The position numbers were made by a program, and so were the translations under genes. From positions 496,001 through 560,000 of the forward strand of contig NW_026570267.1 of assembly GCF_019649055.1 (NCBI RefSeq): a stretch of DNA of 64,000 nucleotides. The letters are read 5' to 3'. Shown here in pieces: positions 12,753-22,919 of the stretch. The notes under the pieces were generated by a model. It made no database searches, was not told the DNA's origin, and was given only the letters and a program-made list of their open reading frames with translations. Each line of letters begins with the position of its first letter. Position 1 is the stretch's first letter. This stretch comes from Paramacrobiotus metropolitanus. Taxonomy: Eukaryota; Tardigrada; Eutardigrada; Parachela; Macrobiotidae.

Positions 12753-13475
12753 CACTAAGGTGAATACGCTCTCACTCCGGTTCAATGCCAAATTCGTAGA
12801 GGATTTCACGTAGGATAAAAAGCGTCAACGTAAGCGTTTATCAGAAGCAACAGACAAATCATCAAAGTGATCATAGAAGTTTTACGATCAGGAATTTCAC
12901 GGCTAACAAAGAAGCTGCACACATGTCAAACCAGACAAGATCCATTAACCTTTTTATGGAGCCATAATTCATGCATATCTACCGTTGACGTGCCATGAGG
13001 ACCGAACGCTTGCTCTGTATTCGTACGGAAGTTTCAAACGAAACATCTGTGGTAAAGTTAAAATGTAAACAGATCTCTGATTCTGATAAGAAAGTCAAAT
13101 GAACGAGCGAGCGATTAGGCGGCAAACTTCAATCAGAATGGTGTCAACGTGGAGTACACTAGAGCTGCCATTTTCGTAATGAATGAGTCTGGCCCCTGGA
13201 GCCGTCTGGCATCCATTCATGAGGTGCCGAAATTGCTTCCGCCCGGTTAGTCACGATCCGCGGTTTGTGGTCGCAAACGTTTACAAATTTTTTACAGTTC
13301 TCTGTGAAATTTTGACTGTCTGGTTGGTTTCAGCAATTTAACTGGCAGAGGTTTGGATTTTTTCTGTCAAATAAAAGTTAGTAGATCCATTTCCGTTCCA
13401 CCCGCTTTTACCTATATCGATGACAATGTTTGGCTCTTGAGCCTTTTGATTGAGCGAACTTGTCTCAGGCTTTAG
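12753..13475. promoter_or_regulatory. Head-to-head intergenic region, probable shared promoter
   Basis: Separates the divergently transcribed SPD-2-like gene (minus) and the aminotransferase-TtcA fusion (plus). The arrangement implies that both promoters lie here; I see no classical TATA box that I would defend. Confidence 0.4.
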
Positions 13476-16400
13476 ATGATCGGCAATCCGTTCAGCATTC
13501 TGAACTTGATTATGGATAATCTCGCTATTCTGACTGCTCCAGAACCGGAAAGATCGTTTGGGCACCGGAAGTTGTATGATATTCCAAAACTTCATGGAAG
13601 TCCTTCCCTTGAAAAGCCGGAGAAGGACCTAGATTCAAAAAGTGGACAAAAATCTCAGCGCTGCGAAGGTTCGGACCTGTTCCCCGTGATCAGCAAGAGC
13701 GTAATTGGAACCCAATTGGTATTCCGTTCTCCGTTCGGAAATCGTCGTGTTGTATACTGCGATTACACTGCGTCGGGCAGATCACTTTCTTTCATAGAGG
13801 ACTATATCCGTGATCAAATACTGGTGAGTAGACGCACTTCTTATAATGGTATCCGCTACGAGTCAGTTATTACCGTTTTTATTTTTGTTGTGATGCTCTG
13901 TAATTGATTTTTACGTCAGCCGCATTATGGAAACACTCATACTACCATTTCGGTGACATCCCTTCAAACCACACTGTTTCGGGAAGAAGCGCGCTCCATC
14001 ATACGCAATTCCGTGAATGCTGCGGAAAGCGATGCCGTCCTGTTTGTGGGCTCGGGATGCACGGGCGCCATGCATAAGCTCATACGAGCGATGAATTTAA
14101 AAGAGCCAGCGGTTGTTTTTGTAGGTGAGCATTTTGTCTCGGCTTCGGAATTTTGTAGTCGTTATGGAGTGGATCCGATCGGTTTAAGTATTTTTATTCC
14201 AGGCCCATTTGAGCACCATTCTGTTTTACTTCCGTGGCGGGAGAGCGGCAGCGAAGTTATTTTAATTCCGGAAAATGAGGAAGGAACGATTGATACAGTA
14301 TTCCTGGAGGATGCATTGAAAAAGCATTCGGGAAGCAAGCGTCAGTTAATTGGTTGCTTTTCCGCGGCTTCCAATATTACTGGAATTATGTCGGATACCA
14401 CGCTGATAACCGTTTTGCTCCATCGTTATAGTGCGCTAGCTATTTGGTAAGCACCTGTTGATTCTTTGTATTTTTATTTAATACTTTGTTGTTCAGACGG
14501 CAACAAGATATAGTTTTGCGTCGATATACGGCTATACGAGTACGTATTGTTTCCTTCATTCTTGTATATACAGACTATAATACAGTAAAACTGATTCAAA
14601 ATTTAAGCTTAACGAACATCAGTTTGTTTGATCCGACCCTGTTAAAGCAAAATTCTTTATCGCTTTTGTAATTTTATTAAAAATGCTCAGATTATAAGAT
14701 CTTCGCGGTACTTTTCTGTTGTGCTTTTTCTTCGTTAATTTCGTGGCGGTCGTCTTCCTGTGGCAGACGTTATATATCTTTAAAGGGATTATGCAGCAGC
14801 TGCTCCTTACAACGAAATCGACATGAATCCGCTTGTTCCGGATGATCCAAAGCGATATGCCCATAAAGATGCCATTGTTTTTTCCGTTCACAAATTTATC
14901 GGAGGAGTAAGCACACCTGGAGTTTTGATCGCTAAGAAGCACCTCTTTAAAAATCCTGTCCCGGAGCACCATGGCGGTGGCACGGTGTTCTTCGTGGATT
15001 CTGAGAATCATCGCTATCTGAAGGAGATCGAAAATCGTGAAGAAGGTGGCACTGCCGCGATAGTGGAATCGATTCGAGCCGGCTTGGTATTTCGTCTGAA
15101 GGATGCTATTACTGCTTCTGTAATTATGAAGCGAGATTCTGAAATTGTGGAGCGCGCTTTCAAAGCTTGGAGCGGTGTTGAGAATTTGATTCTTTTGGGA
15201 AATATGCGAGCGCCTAGACTACCGATATTCTCGTTTGTTATCCAGGATGCCAGTACGAATCGTTTGTTACATCATAATTTCGTCAGCGCTGTCCTAAACG
15301 ATCTTTTTGGGCTACAATCCCGATCAGGCTGTGTATGTCGTGTGATCGGTTTTTTATGTTAAACCAAAATTTGTCAACGTAAATTTCCGAACTCTGAAAA
15401 TAACCACTGTTATTGTGATTCTTACCTAAATGAAAGGAGGTGAATGGTTTAATACATAAATAACAGATATCTTATTTCTTTGTACTCGTATGAGTCGTAA
15501 ATTTTTTCCTGTTTTAGGCTTGCGCTGGACCTTACGCGCAGTCTCTTCTTGGCATCGTCAACGAGCTTTCCAAAGAGATTGAAAGAACATTGCTGGAAGA
15601 TCCTCGGCTAGAAATGCACCGATGGGAAGTGGAATTTTCACAGCGAGAAGTACTGCGTCCAGGATTTGTACGCATTAACCTGCCGTATTTTTTTACCGAC
15701 GAGGAAATCGATTTTGTCTGCGAGGCCGTGAAAATGGTCGCCCAAGTGGGCTGGAAACTGTTGCCTCTGTATAGATTCAATCCCGAAACAGGAGAATGGC
15801 GGCACCAAGACAACACTCTCTTCCAAGATCGCAAATGGCTCAGTAGTATACAGTTTACCGCTGACGGATTGTCCTATCCAAACTTCACATACAAACCCGA
15901 TCCTCCTGAAAATTATGCCGCCGTGTTGGCTGCAGCGCGAGAGATATTGGAGAACGCAGTTAAATTGGCTTACCGCACACATTTGGTCGATCAGGACGTT
16001 GCATTTGATCCTAAAGCGTCCAGTTTGCGATGGTTTCTTTTACCTAGCGAAGCGCGCCGATTATTGTGCAACATAATGCCACTGCCGCAGCGTGCACAAA
16101 TGCCGTTTATGCCTCGTCGGTCTGGCGAACTTGGATCATCTTCCTGCTGTGATCAATCTCTTGAATGCGCATCCGTTGATGCCAAACGAGATCGTTGTTG
16201 TGTGATTCGACCGAAGACAAATGAACAAATTAAAACAGATAACAGTTATTTATCGAATTCCGTTACTGCAAAATGGCACAGCCCCACGAAAGCCATATGG
16301 AAGCCGATGTTGACGGTGAGTTTTTGAACCTCCCATATTTAAAATATGGAAGAGCAGGAAGTAATCATGATCGGCCGATTAATTTATGAATGTAATGTAT

Positions 16401-17764
16401 TCTAGGCTATTAACGAATTCGGTATGCTTAAGGACGGCGACAAGGTTTTGGTTTGTTTATCAGGTATGACCGCATGAGTAAGCTGTAGGTATGTCATTGG
16501 TATAGAACTAGATATATTGCGGATACTTGTTAACAAACTCATTACAACTGCACATTGAAACAGGAGGAAAGGATTCTCTCAGTTTACTTCACGCAATGCG
16601 GCAGTTCAAATTTTATGGAAAATCACAAGTACGTACTTGACGCGCTGAATGTGAAAAATGTCCGCGTAAGAGTTTATACTTACAGGACGGGCTGAGTTAA
16701 CGTTAACAATAAATACAAAAAGTATTACTGTATGAGTTGTATTTGCTTGTATTTATTTGTGTTACATTTCCGTTGATAGGGTTTGAGAATCGAAGTGGGT
16801 GCCGTAACTGTTGATCCGCTTACTTCCTCTTATGATCCGAGCTCCCTTATTCCGTATTTAAAGGCGCTTGATGTCCCTTATTTTTACGAACGACAAGGTA
16901 CAGTAAATTAAATTGCGTGGCGTAACTGTAAAAAAGCATACTTATAGCCTAACTTTTACAGGAATTATGGACCAAGCTGCCGCCTTGGAAGAATGTAATT
17001 CCATATGCAGTTTTTGCAGGTTGGTCAAATAATTCTCGAATGTCCATGGAGTCGTTTAATGAATTCGTACTAAAGTTCTTTAAGACTGAAGTCCTTTTTG
17101 TTACCTTGCAGTCGCATGAAACGTGGCAGACTTTACAGCTGCGCTCGTCGAGAAGGCTACAATGTATTAGCCTTCGGACAACATCTTGATGATCTGGCCG
17201 AAAGGTATTTCAGGCGATACTTCATTTTGTAGTTCGGTATTTATGCAGTATTAATTTTGTTTGTAGCTTTTTCATGTCGGTTTTTCACAACGGCCGGTTA
17301 CGAACAATGAAGGCCGCTTATACTGTGGTAAGTTGAGTCCAGCTGGCTTATTTTCCGGTGCGTATAAGTAGTTATGCATCCTAGTTTCTACGAATGCATT
17401 ACAGATAGAAGGCGATCTTCGGATGATCCGGCCGTTAGTGTTCGTCAGAGAAAAAGATACACGACACTTCGCCGAGAGTCGACATTTACCGGTTGTGGCG
17501 GAAAATTGTCCTGCATGTTTTGAAGTCCCGAAGGAACGATTTAGAGTGAAGCAATTGCTGGCCGCACAGGAGCTTTTGTATCCTGGTCTATATGATTCCC
17601 TCAAAATCGCCATGAAGCCTTTGATGGCTATCAAGACAGCCGGGGCGGAAAATGCTATCACGAAAATTCCCGAGATTTTGGATGAGTTATTTCGAAGTCG
17701 GAACATAAACTGTGATAAATCTGCTCAGGAATTAAATGGCATTCACGATGAAGATGAAGAATAG
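13476..17764 (+). CDS. Fusion enzyme: class V aminotransferase (cysteine-desulfurase-like) plus TtcA-type PP-loop tRNA thiolase
   Basis: Eleven exons in phase: 13476-13823, 13920-14446, 14786-15332, 15518-16315, 16406-16463, 16564-16628, 16780-16897, 16962-17019, 17112-17204, 17267-17327 and 17405-17764; about 1010 aa (ATG at 13512 is an alternative start). The N-terminal half is a PLP enzyme: YCDYTASGRSLSFIEDYI, GNTHTT, SVHKF with the Schiff-base lysine near residue 328, and RSGCACAGP (about 471-479), a desulfurase-like cysteine loop. The C-terminal half is a TtcA/ATPBD-type PP-loop: SGGKDS (about 759-764), CSFC (836-839), FGQHLDDLAES and CPAC (926-929), matching the cysteines that hold the Fe-S cluster in bacterial TtcA. 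Inferred role: cysteine-derived sulfur delivered in cis for 2-thiocytidine in tRNA. Introns rule out bacterial contamination. Compartment unclear. Confidence 0.85.
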
Positions 17765-17846: not shown

Positions 17847-17852
17847 AATAAA
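17847..17852 (+). terminator. Poly(A) signal of the fusion gene
   Basis: AATAAA about 85 bases after the stop codon at 17764, well placed for 3' end formation. Confidence 0.6.
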
Positions 17853-18760: not shown

Positions 18761-21700
18761 ATGAGTACTTCTAGTCCGGAAGCTGCACAATCATCGTTCT
18801 ACCTAGTGTTGGCGCCCGTAAGCGCCCAGCAGGATGGATCTCGTCCACCGGTACCCATCACTCCAAGTCCAGATCCTGTTTGCGCAAGGGGAGGGATGCG
18901 ACAGTTTAGGAAGATTGCTCCTGCCACGGGCATCGTTAGCCAAAACCCGTTGTTCATTAAAGAAGCACGACGTCAGGCAGTTGAGCACAGAGTATCTCGT
19001 TCACCCGATCGGTATACGATTATAAGCTCTTCGGTTCCGCGCTACATCAACGCAAACCGATCGTCGAAGGCAGATGTGCGACCGCGATCCGAAGATGCAG
19101 GTATGTTCTGGATTAGCCTGTAGATTATTTCCTCAGTGTACGAACAGCTGTTTCGTCTTACTTGCTCGAAGGAACTGACTGAAATTCTAGAGCTGTAGGC
19201 ATTTTTTTCTCTTCACTACTTGAATCAGTGGGGTGTCTCTGCAGCATAGTATTATCAAGGACTATCATTATTTAAATCTCAAGTAGCGCGCGCGAATACA
19301 TGTTTGATTCGCTACTGCGTTTTAGTGGATCATGTGGCTGCCGGAGACTACGTATCTATCGTCTTGAACAAGGAGAACGTGAAAGTGGCTGAGGCTTGCA
19401 TTCGGTGTGCAGGTGCTGCTCCAGGAGAGCCTTGTCCGCTGCATTCCCATCGCATCCAGGATACGGAGGCTTTTCCGTTCGCGTTAGCTACCTTACCCTG
19501 TTCGTTGTATTTTCTGCGTCGGAATCCTGAGGGTGAGGGATTCTCAACAAATTTTGTTCCACAGTTTTTGCATTGCTTTGTAAAGGATTAGTATCTTTTT
19601 AATGTTATGTTTGTTTTCATCCAAAGCCAAAAAGTAGTCTGATAACGAATATTACGAAAAAGAGTGCCATAAAGATTTTATACAGAGTGATTATTTATTA
19701 TTGCATATTTATTAGTGCGTGCAACGATACATATAACCGCCTGCTGTGGTAAATTTTGAAAAATGCATTAAGGCGAGATGAAAATAGCGTAGCTTATGGT
19801 TTTTGTGCTTAAACTTTAAGGTTACTTATAATTGCGTAGTAAGTTAGTAACAGTGTTTTTGCGGAGATAATGAACTCGGCTAGGTACTGCCTGAAAAGTT
19901 ACTTGGCCTTTTGTCGCATCGTAATCATAAACTTTTCTTGCTTATTAAACTTATGCATTAGAATTACTCCTTGGACCTTACTTGTTAGCTAATGGTAACT
20001 TTGATTTAACTTCGGTCGATGAAGCTCGGGCGTTTTTGTTCTTTCAGTTCTGTTATTCTGCAGGGTATTTAGATGTATGCGTTTTCGATTGTGCTGTCAC
20101 TGTTTGCTTGATACGTAAATTATTATCATTCTGTAAATTACTGTACTAAATTGCATCTTGGCTGTACTCGTATACTTCTAGTCGTATTGTATTGTATTGT
20201 GCTGCACTCGTATCGTACTGCACGGTAAATTGAAAATTTAAATTACTGTACTGTAACACTTTTTCCTCTGCTCACAGAATTACCGATCGGAGTGTGCACC
20301 CGAGAGTCTGTTCCCACCGGAACTGTATTTGGACCAATGCAAGGCTCAGTCTGCTCCCTCGTGAAAGAGCAACCGGGACTGTACGGGATTCCACATCCCT
20401 GTTCTGCCAACGGTTTTAAATGTTTTCACTTGGAATCAATCCATGGCTGCAACTGGATGAAATTCGTTCAGTTGGCAGGCGACGATCTGGAGCAAAACCT
20501 AATGTCTTACATCTCGGATGGAGAAGTGTATTTCGCTACAACCAGAGAAATTGCAGCTGATGCAGAACTGAAGGTCTGGTATTCCCCAAGCTATGCCAAA
20601 CTTCTCTTTCCTCCAGGGGACATGCCTTGTACGTTGCACGTGAAAAAATAATCTTCGAAAACGAATTTCGAAATTCAAACATACTTACTATAGTTCCGTT
20701 ATGTTATGCAGTTGAGCAGAGCGATGAAATCCGCGAAAGGCAGGACTCTGATGTTACTACGGAAGCGGAATCGGCTTTGCCTTCGCCGATATCCATTGGT
20801 GAAGATTCGGTGGCGTTAGGTGCTGCTTCGGTGGTGGAGACATGTTGTGATGAAAACACCGAAGATCTCAAAATTTCTCAGAATGATCCCTTTGCTGTAA
20901 TTACTGACAGTACAGTTTTGCAAGTCATCAGCGGTAAATTTTCAGCATGTCATTTTCAAATACTTTGTGATCGATAAAGACTTCTTTCAGATGAAGAGGA
21001 TTTTCCTGAAGTTGGCCGACGGGTCGTACGTAAAGCAATTCGACGAATAGAAGCTGTGTTGTCTGTTAATCCGTTCCAGTATCCCTTGGGTCCAAGACGA
21101 ATGAAAGCATTTCAAATAGCGGTGTGCCAGATTTCTGGTAAGGGTTTGCCGCAGCCGGATGTAGAAAAGAAAGCCGTACTCCTTCGGAATATGCTTCAAA
21201 AATATTCGAAGTTGTTTCCGTACTGCTTTACTGGTGTTCATCCGGATAATGATGATAACGTATCTCGTAAATTCTATTCTGTTATGGAGAAGTACATCCA
21301 GATCGCCCAAAACGGACTAACGAATCGAGAAAAGGTGTTAATGCGGGTGCCGCCTGATACGATTAATAAGCTGCAGGCCATAATAAAAGTTAATCCATAT
21401 CAATTTCCTTCGGACACTGATGATCACCAAAAAGCCTGGCGGAAAGTTGCTTTAGAATTTTTGGGGGAAGAAATATACTCTGGAAATAATTTGGAGAAGA
21501 CAGCCCACGATTTGCAGAAGTTTGCTAGGCGACGCTTGGAAGTGGATGCGAAAAAACTGGAGCAGCAGTATCCATCTTCATGTGATATTGTCCGGCAGTA
21601 CGTAGGCTTGATGCATGAGTTAATGAACTTGACCGGTACTGACAAAACAGCAGACGCACAGTGTGATTGGTTAACGGGAACCGAGCTATCATCTTCCTGC

Positions 21701-22919
21701 AGTGATCTGGATACTCATGATAGTCAGACGGCTACGCAGAATCGCTCAAGCTACAGATATATTCCTACAGTACCGAAACAACGCAAGAGGAAAGCCTCCC
21801 CCAAATCTGAAGATGAAATTCGCCCCGCTTCTGCCAAGGAAAAGAAGAGATCATCTGAGAAGAAACCGTCGAAGTCAAAATTTTTTGTCGATCCTGCAAT
21901 AACTGTTAAGTATCCTTGCACAATCTGCAAAATTCACTTCAAATCGGAAGCGCTGTGGAAACTGCATACTGAGTTCCATGAATCGTCGAATGTATCTATC
22001 GAAGAGAACGATCAGTGCGAGAAAATTTGCCCAGAATGTGGAGAGGAGTGCGACAGTTTAACCACTTTGTATCAGCACGTTGAGAATCATGGAGTGAATT
22101 ATTTCGGTAAAGAGCGCTGTCAGATTTGCCAAAAATTCATTGCTGCACATATCATGGATCGCCACATTAAAGGAAATCATCCCCCCACTGAGGAAACCGG
22201 TACCGAAGAATTCAAGTGTGACGTATGCGGCAAAGTCTTTTCATCTGAAATGAAGCATCGAGCACATGTTCAGGTTTGTGGTATCTTTTACAATTTTATT
22301 TGCCATTGTTATGAGTTCTCTTTCTAATTTTTTATTCAATTTTTGACAGATGCATAAAGTCCGCAAGTGCCTGATTTGTGCGGAAATCTTCGATAGCTGG
22401 GTTGAGTTGGGCAAACATCATTTGATTCATAAAGAAGGCGATGGTTTCCACTGTCGCAATTGCGACTTTGTTGCCGCTACGTTCCGACGGCTGACCAATC
22501 ATCACCGCAGGCGGCATGATATCCGCAGTATTACCATGTGTAAAGTATGCGGGGAAATGTGCAAAAATAAGGAAACACTGTTTCGGCACATGCAGAGTCG
22601 TCATAATTACGCCTGCCGGTTTTCTTTCGAGTGCGAGGTATGCGGTATGAAATTTCGAAAAGCTTCCACTCTCCAGCATCATGTTGCCTACAAACATACT
22701 ACTGCGCGACGGAATAAAATAATTGAATCACAAAAAAGGCGTGCGAAGGAGCGTCAAGGCAAAGATTACGTAGGGCCACGAAAGCGGATGCTGCTGGAGG
22801 AATTTCCGTTCAAGTGCCCGCACTGCGAAGTCGGATTTGTTATAAAAGGAAGATATCTCAGACATGTTAATAGATTTCATCCAGATGTTCTTTCATCTGG
22901 TTCATCGTCGGAAAGTTGA
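18761..22919 (+). CDS. PRDM10-type SET/PR-domain zinc-finger protein
   Basis: Nuclear DNA-binding regulator. Exons 18761-19100, 19326-19532, 20278-20628, 20712-20933, 20991-22273 and 22350-22919 fit in phase, about 990 aa. A Cys/His knuckle (CIRCAG, CPLHSH) precedes the PR/SET domain, which shows GTVFGPMQG, CNWMKFVQLAGDDLEQNLMS and ELKVWYSPSYAKLL, closest in memory to PRDM10/PRDM15. Residues about 392-570 hold two copies of a helical, MADF/SANT-like unit (VNPFQYPLG and VNPYQFPSD, each followed by a helix-rich stretch). A Lys-rich nuclear-localisation-like segment follows, then about nine C2H2 fingers from residue 680 (CTICKIHF, CPECGEEC, CQICQKF, CDVCGKVF, CLICAEIF, CRNC, CKVCGEMC, CEVCGMKF, CPHC). 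PRDM family membership is firm; the exact orthologue is uncertain. Confidence 0.85.

Follow-up and report, generated by a model that had tools for sequence, protein, structure and literature searches.

Gene structure

The window analysed here is a stretch of 64,000 nucleotides from the tardigrade Paramacrobiotus metropolitanus (RefSeq assembly GCF_019649055.1, contig NW_026570267.1, positions 496,001 to 560,000 of the forward strand); positions given below count from its first letter. On its plus strand, at 13476-17764, lies one spliced gene in which 12 GT-AG-bordered exons, read in a single frame, encode a protein of 984 residues. The gene model confirms the predicted fusion, in one gene, of a pyridoxal 5'-phosphate (PLP) enzyme and a PP-loop enzyme of the TtcA family (Table 1). 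Exon borders were placed manually with homology and open frames as guides. Each of the 11 introns is GT-AG and preserves the frame, and the guanine plus cytosine content is 46% in the coding sequence vs 35% in the introns. The motifs from which a preliminary description of this locus had deduced such a fusion are all present in the one spliced frame: SVHKF (residues 299-303, with K302) and RSGCACAGP (445-453) for the PLP enzyme, SGGKDS (733-738), CSFC (810-813) and CPAC (900-903) for the PP-loop enzyme. The junction 16315/16406 between exons 5 and 6 keeps the same borders, and the eleven exons first counted become twelve with the recognition of an extra intron at 14125-14202 that, being only 78 bp long, stop-free and in frame, is easily overlooked. 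We take this segment as an intron because its retention would split the motif GP[YF]EHHS, contiguous in 87/87 of the bacterial relatives described below. That count is biased, since 80 of these relatives were retrieved with two search patterns of which the motif is one; it also occurs in the 7/7 plasmid rows, which were found without that pattern.

The unity of the gene is best seen in exon 5. This exon carries both the end of the aminotransferase-family homology, with LRWFLLP from residue 618, and the first TtcA-homologous residues, KAIWKPMLT (within 699-714) being aligned to KKIWKNFIK of a Haliovirga row, and no stop codon lies between them. Because exon 5 carries both homologies, separate genes for the two halves are very unlikely in this gene model. 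When the whole protein was used as query against the 169.8-Mb assembly, 12/12 matches fell inside the fusion gene (contig C47). Polyadenylation-type signals are found at 17847 (AATAAA, 83 bp past the stop codon), 16708 (AATAAA, in intron 7) and 16229 (ATTAAA, in exon 5). The N-terminus and start codon are uncertain: the first ATG stands immediately 3' of 'ctttag' (13462-13476), a possible splice or trans-splice acceptor, so that an exon further upstream may exist.

Table 1. Features of the fusion gene in the window
Feature	Position	Strand	Basis
Exon 1, residues 1-116, start codon uncertain	13476..13823	+	gene model
Exon 2	13920..14124	+	gene model
Exon 3, EHHS motif, residues 188-191	14203..14446	+	gene model, relatives alignment
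Exon 4, PLP lysine K302 at 14892-14894; last codon C448	14786..15332	+	gene model, relatives alignment
Exon 5, residues 449-714: C450 (15521-15523), aminotransferase-family C-terminal part, linker, first TtcA-homologous residues	15518..16315	+	
Exon 6, SGGKDS start	16406..16463	+	gene model, TtcA homology
Exon 7, SGGKDS end	16564..16628	+	gene model, TtcA homology
Exon 8	16780..16897	+	gene model
Exon 9, C810 (17006-17008) and C813 (17015-17017), first two putative cluster ligands	16962..17019	+	alignment
Exon 10, GQHLDD	17112..17204	+	gene model, alignment
Exon 11	17267..17327	+	gene model
Exon 12, C900 (17507-17509), third putative cluster ligand; C903; stop codon	17405..17764	+	alignment
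Aminotran_5 core, residues 93-456 (genomic span including introns)	13752..15541	+	Pfam
Residues 457-650, C-terminal part common to stand-alone bacterial relatives, LRWF at 618	15542..16123	+	
Linker, residues 651-698, five cysteines (658, 659, 665, 675, 676)	16124..16267	+	
TtcA-family PP-loop half, residues 699-940 (genomic span including introns)	16268..17629	+	Pfam, NCBIfam, alignment
AATAAA polyadenylation-type signal	17847..17852	+	sequence

A class V PLP enzyme of a bacterial stand-alone family

A domain search of the joined exons bears out the proposed assignment of both halves. In Pfam, the full protein matches Aminotran_5 (PF00266) over residues 93-456 (119.4 bits vs a gathering score of 21.5, E 2.3e-34) and ATP_bind_3 (PF01171) over residues 727-897 (42.4 bits vs 27, E 7.9e-11), with no further match to E 1. 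The best named family of the first half in NCBIfam is SufS (TIGR01979), at 118.2 bits and below its cut-off of 475.1, and IscS (TIGR02006) is not reached (20.7 bits vs a cut-off of 643.2). The likeness to a desulfurase thus holds, whereas the comparison with IscS made in the preliminary description has to give way to one with SufS. With the SufS/CsdA-type desulfurases (PF00266) the first half shares the class V profile, the PLP lysine and the position of the acceptor cysteine; unlike them, it possesses C448, has a longer C-terminal part that closes with LRWF, and lies far under the SufS cut-off. When the profile is aligned with the best solved cysteine desulfurase, C450 takes the place of the cysteine in the SufS-type motif RAGHHCAQP, the catalytic cysteine of those enzymes; C448 is a further loop cysteine of this class V family. 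Among named families and solved structures, those closest to the first half are mostly cysteine desulfurases, and desulfurase activity is likely.

Close relatives of the first half are found in bacteria. By tblastn, 215 plasmid records contain a relative; in 105 of these a single place spans >=80% of the query, and the 40 listed show 38.8-47.1% identity. We analysed 87 loci, namely the best 80 of at least 588 confirmed relatives in prokaryote genomes (43-50% identity) and seven plasmid loci. These relatives are about 460-640 residues long (83/87 measure 530-640 residues and have their stop codon in the locus), and K302, H190, C448 and C450 are kept in 87/87 of them, H190 lying inside a search pattern used to fetch relatives and the other three residues outside the patterns. 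Homology spans from about residue 66 to residue 624-648. Judged by this alignment, the first half is a member of a bacterial class V family of stand-alone enzymes that has neither a name of its own nor a characterisation: the fusion has the homology through the C-terminal part, the RxGCxCA loop and GP[YF]EHHS, the same catalytic residues at 38.8-50% identity, and differs in not standing alone. A tree of the first half (88 rows, SH-aLRT (Shimodaira-Hasegawa-like approximate likelihood ratio test) support only), a quick tree for which two plasmid rows were chosen as root, gives the fusion a long branch, of length 2.7, that arises close to the base of an 80-row group, 79 of whose rows are bacterial (support 82). 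In the same family, the copy on a contig titled Bifidobacterium breve (L022) pairs with a Nanopelagicales row (SH-aLRT 94), and this contig is possibly a mislabelled metagenome-assembled genome.

The neighbourhoods of the bacterial relatives, where gene calls are heuristic in the GC-rich loci, are varied. There is no recurrent neighbour family, the maximum being 2 of 61 adjacent same-strand open reading frames per family (61 of 74 scanned). In Rhizobium tumorigenes (L005:3905-7126), the relative's gene overlaps a metallo-beta-lactamase gene, followed by one for a TauE sulfite exporter; the metallo-beta-lactamase protein reaches 545.7 bits with the model of the Blh sulfur dioxygenase (cut-off 625), from model position 140. 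Neighbours of this kind, a sulfur dioxygenase and TauE, fit a producer of persulfide and we count them as a hint of desulfurase activity, the row being a candidate cysteine-to-sulfite pathway by its gene content. A protein with metallo-beta-lactamase and rhodanese domains is encoded about 1.2 kb downstream of the relative in Rhodococcus sp. DK17, and an L-2-amino-thiazoline-4-carboxylate (ATC) hydrolase, an enzyme that yields cysteine precursors, is among the neighbours in Sagittula and Pseudosulfitobacter. In two Roseobacteraceae (L002:4980-9642, L007:3980-8610), the relative stands in an operon-like row with an ATP-binding cassette transporter, a flavin adenine dinucleotide (FAD)-dependent oxidoreductase, ATC hydrolase and an M20 aminoacylase.

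The region between the two cores

The roughly 280 residues between the two catalytic cores had been proposed to form an extra carrier or dimerisation module. Neither kind of module is supported for most of this region, which is the class V family's own C-terminal part: matches of the stand-alone bacterial relatives extend to fusion residue 624-648 in 76/80 loci. In the remaining four the match stops at 549-592, and two of those genes have no stop codon within the locus. With the middle region alone as query, 86/87 loci match and the two longest matches reach residues 672 and 707; exon 5 has no Pfam match. Because the relatives' matches stop there, we consider residues 457 to about 650 as part of the PLP enzyme family and the true linker as about 50 residues long (651-698). 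This linker displays cysteines in the arrangement CC, C, CC at residues 658-676 (16145-16201), and of the 86 bacterial matches the two longest alone run well into this segment or beyond it.

A PP-loop enzyme of the TtcA family

In NCBIfam, the second half matches TtcA (NF007972) best, with 178.9 bits (E 1.3e-52) over residues 699-940, vs 51.4 bits for TilS, 41.3 for TtuA and 26.3 for NcsA. For scale, we scanned six bacterial proteins in the same manner: two canonical TtcA scored 437.7 and 495.2 bits and four TtcA-like proteins from Fusobacteriota, Bacillota and Bacteroidota 173.3-242 bits, one of the latter, from Eubacterium eligens, carrying a TtcA annotation in its record. An alignment with 25 bacterial TtcA-family rows (14 canonical and 11 others) shows that SGGKDS is kept and that the pair C810-C813 and C900, cysteines of the cluster-binding type, are present as in 25/25 rows; C810, C813, C900 and C903 align with C122, C125, C210 and C213 of Escherichia coli TtcA. 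The fusion combines features of both sets of rows. C903 is shared with the 14 canonical rows and found in 0/11 others, and CSR after the first CxxC is likewise as in the 14 canonical rows; a two-residue insertion before C900 occurs in 11/11 non-canonical and 0/14 canonical rows, and the start of the PP half (IWK) resembles Haliovirga, Fusobacterium and Peptoclostridium. A tree places the second half on a branch of length 4.83 and rejects neither a grouping with the 14 canonical rows (approximately unbiased (AU) test, p 0.387) nor one with seven Bacillota/Fusobacteriota-type rows (p 0.406), groups that were named after the tree had been inspected. The phylogeny of each half, suggested earlier as a check, puts the first half near the base of its group and is compatible with both groupings for the second. 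By its anatomy, the second half is a TtcA-family thiolase, with the PP-loop, the CxxC, a second cysteine pair and about 240 residues of homology in common with TtcA; it differs from TtcA in its lower score, GQH and CFEV, the insertion before C900 and its placement behind a PLP enzyme. Among the bacterial rows, a plasmid recorded under Streptomyces flavofungini (L115) encodes a TtcA-family protein that groups with Clostridia rows (98/87, 100/100), by transfer or contamination.

Distribution and genomic setting

A prokaryotic version of the fusion was not seen in the plasmid and prokaryote-genome searches made. The linker plus the TtcA half, used as query, matched 49 plasmid records, with places covering 80% of the query in 0/49. 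Four Sinorhizobium replicons hold both halves about 78-85 kb apart among the matches listed (40 of 215 for the first half, 30 of 49 for the second), each of them having a second first-half place beyond those matches. In viral contigs, 23 pattern matches included no relative and the TtcA half gave no match; 14 phage records have TtcA-type matches, with at most 35.8% identity among the 10 listed. Because a TtcA match occurs in none of the 87 loci of relatives and in only eight of 25 genomes, the pairing of PLP and TtcA enzymes seems to have arisen in the eukaryotic lineage and not to descend from a bacterial pair, as far as the searches made can tell.

The same genome contains a gene with an SSGSACTS loop (C147:97001-98003), which we take to be NFS1; because of this gene, the fusion seems to supplement the normal desulfurase rather than to replace it. 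A PF01171 search of the animal's own genome gave no match despite the presence of the fusion gene, as this search misses split exons. No literature on a desulfurase-TtcA fusion was found by title and abstract start among the matches listed. Two-domain proteins of this type may already sit unnoticed in eukaryotic protein databases. A krill transcript has been annotated as TtcA (PMC3714250; this and the other papers are cited for the passages drawn on here), so that TtcA-like genes are likely in other animals. Elsewhere in the window are a RUN-domain exon (3-641, E 9.9e-32) and C2H2 zinc-finger exons (20978-22916), which, like the spliceosomal introns, suit an animal genome. Models for arthropod cuticle, nematode collagen and COX1 gave no match; the first two also gave none in the control genomes, so that this negative result carries no weight.

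Proposed mechanism and alternatives

In bacteria, the sulfur donor and the RNA thiolase of the IscS/TtcA type are separate proteins. Molybdenum cofactor sulfurase (MOCOS) is, as in this gene, a eukaryotic fusion of a NifS-like domain with a client domain; its client is a MOSC domain, unlike the RNA thiolase found here. In Bacillus subtilis, dedicated desulfurases serve PP-loop thiolases directly, and the pairs YrvO-MnmA and NifZ-ThiI resemble the fusion in that a desulfurase is dedicated to one PP-loop tRNA thiolase, though they are encoded by separate neighbouring genes and involve different thiolase families (PMC5372745). The enzymes YcfC and YcfA of 6-thioguanine synthesis also couple a PLP enzyme and a PP-loop enzyme, a likeness in enzyme type, as separate proteins with a small-molecule product (PMC6225789).

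We are modestly inclined to believe that the gene encodes a two-enzyme protein in which a desulfurase is covalently dedicated to a [4Fe-4S] RNA thiolase. The N-terminal PLP enzyme, with K302, the acceptor C450 and the adjacent conserved C448, would draw the sulfur of cysteine into a persulfide. The PP-loop enzyme of the C-terminal half would adenylate an RNA nucleoside, the most likely one being cytidine 32 of some tRNAs, and a [4Fe-4S] cluster held by three cysteines (C810, C813, C900) would present the sulfur that replaces the nucleoside oxygen, in keeping with a described adenylation and [4Fe-4S] mechanism (PMC10067955); the part of the TtcA cluster in sulfur transfer is not settled (PMC5372739, PMC5372745). 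We infer that sulfur could pass within or between chains, the channelling in cis first suggested being one possibility, and that the fusion dedicates desulfurase to thiolase as the separate pairs of Bacillus do. Thiolation of some RNA is likely and, given that desulfurase activity and RNA thiolation hold, C32 as the target would be a little better than even.

Several observations weigh against this reading. The first half lies below the NCBIfam cut-off of all desulfurase families. The claim of a complete TtcA-type thiolase stands for the motifs and for TtcA as best family and fails at the curated cut-off, the 178.9 bits being under 272; GQH replaces GHH and CFEV replaces CGSQ when compared with 14/14 canonical rows. 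TtcA is described as needing C122, C125 and a third cysteine given as 222 (PMC5372745), a position where the E. coli TtcA row that we used has no cysteine, C900 and C903 aligning with 210 and 213. A TtcA match was found in 0/87 loci of the relatives (E 0.01), many of the contigs being short, and in 8/25 genomes taken from holders of the 80 loci, several of these genomes being fragmentary and the query being the divergent PP half of the fusion. Finally, 2-thiocytidine (s2C) is assigned to bacteria and archaea only in the passages of PMC7694415 drawn on here.

The sulfur donor and thiolase might instead act on a target other than tRNA C32, be it a different tRNA position, a different RNA or a small molecule. 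We regard this as doubtful, yet as a possibility of some substance: the score of the PP half lies among those of the four TtcA-like proteins, it shares the insertion before C900 with the non-canonical rows and the IWK start with Haliovirga, Fusobacterium and Peptoclostridium, and the separate YcfC and YcfA make 6-thioguanine in a bacterium (PMC6225789). By contrast, TtcA remains the top-scoring family, C903 and CSR are those of the canonical rows, and the AU tests, with groups named once the tree had been seen, reject neither affiliation. A PLP half that is a C-S lyase of a different kind, or a class V enzyme acting on some other substrate, is rather unlikely; the scores below all named desulfurase families, the RxGCxCA loop in place of RxGHHCA and the varied neighbourhoods of the bacterial relatives would suit it, whereas the loop cysteines kept in 87/87 relatives and the sulfur dioxygenase gene overlapping the gene of one relative argue for a desulfurase.

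The PLP half might also build or repair the [4Fe-4S] cluster of the PP half without passing sulfur to RNA, or the two activities might merely share a chain. The E. coli desulfurase serves TtcA via IscU and cluster assembly (PMC5372739, PMC8300815) and the related PP-loop enzyme NcsA uses free sulfide in vitro (PMC10067955); against this stand the directly acting desulfurase-thiolase pairs of B. subtilis (PMC5372745) and the gene recognised as NFS1, given which general cluster sulfur would probably come from another source, and we judge a role confined to the cluster, or a mere shared chain, to be quite improbable. That the locus comprises two adjacent genes, or reflects bacterial contamination or faulty assembly, is hardly credible: the signals in exon 5 and intron 7 could end a shorter transcript, but the 11 GT-AG introns, an exon 5 common to both homologies, the lack of an in-frame stop and the AATAAA 83 bp past the final stop all speak against it.

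Significance

In its most extended form, which we put forward tentatively and with considerably less than even confidence, our interpretation of a dedicated desulfurase-thiolase is that the animal produces a thionucleoside, either s2C32 or a novel thiocytidine, by means of one self-contained cysteine-to-RNA protein. The desulfurase half of this protein would stem from a bacterial family with no other tie to TtcA, and its five-cysteine linker might act as a swinging persulfide arm. The fusion also suggests that the role of the bacterial class V family, which the annotated plasmid records examined name by fold only ('aminotransferase class V-fold PLP-dependent enzyme'), is that of a desulfurase. 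If the dedicated pair is real, one protein would, besides cluster assembly, carry cysteine sulfur to RNA, and with the desulfurase tethered, the unsettled question of where TtcA-type enzymes obtain their sulfur would be open to direct test. The pair would also predict, in a tardigrade, a thionucleoside that has no eukaryotic listing in the portion of PMC7694415 cited here.

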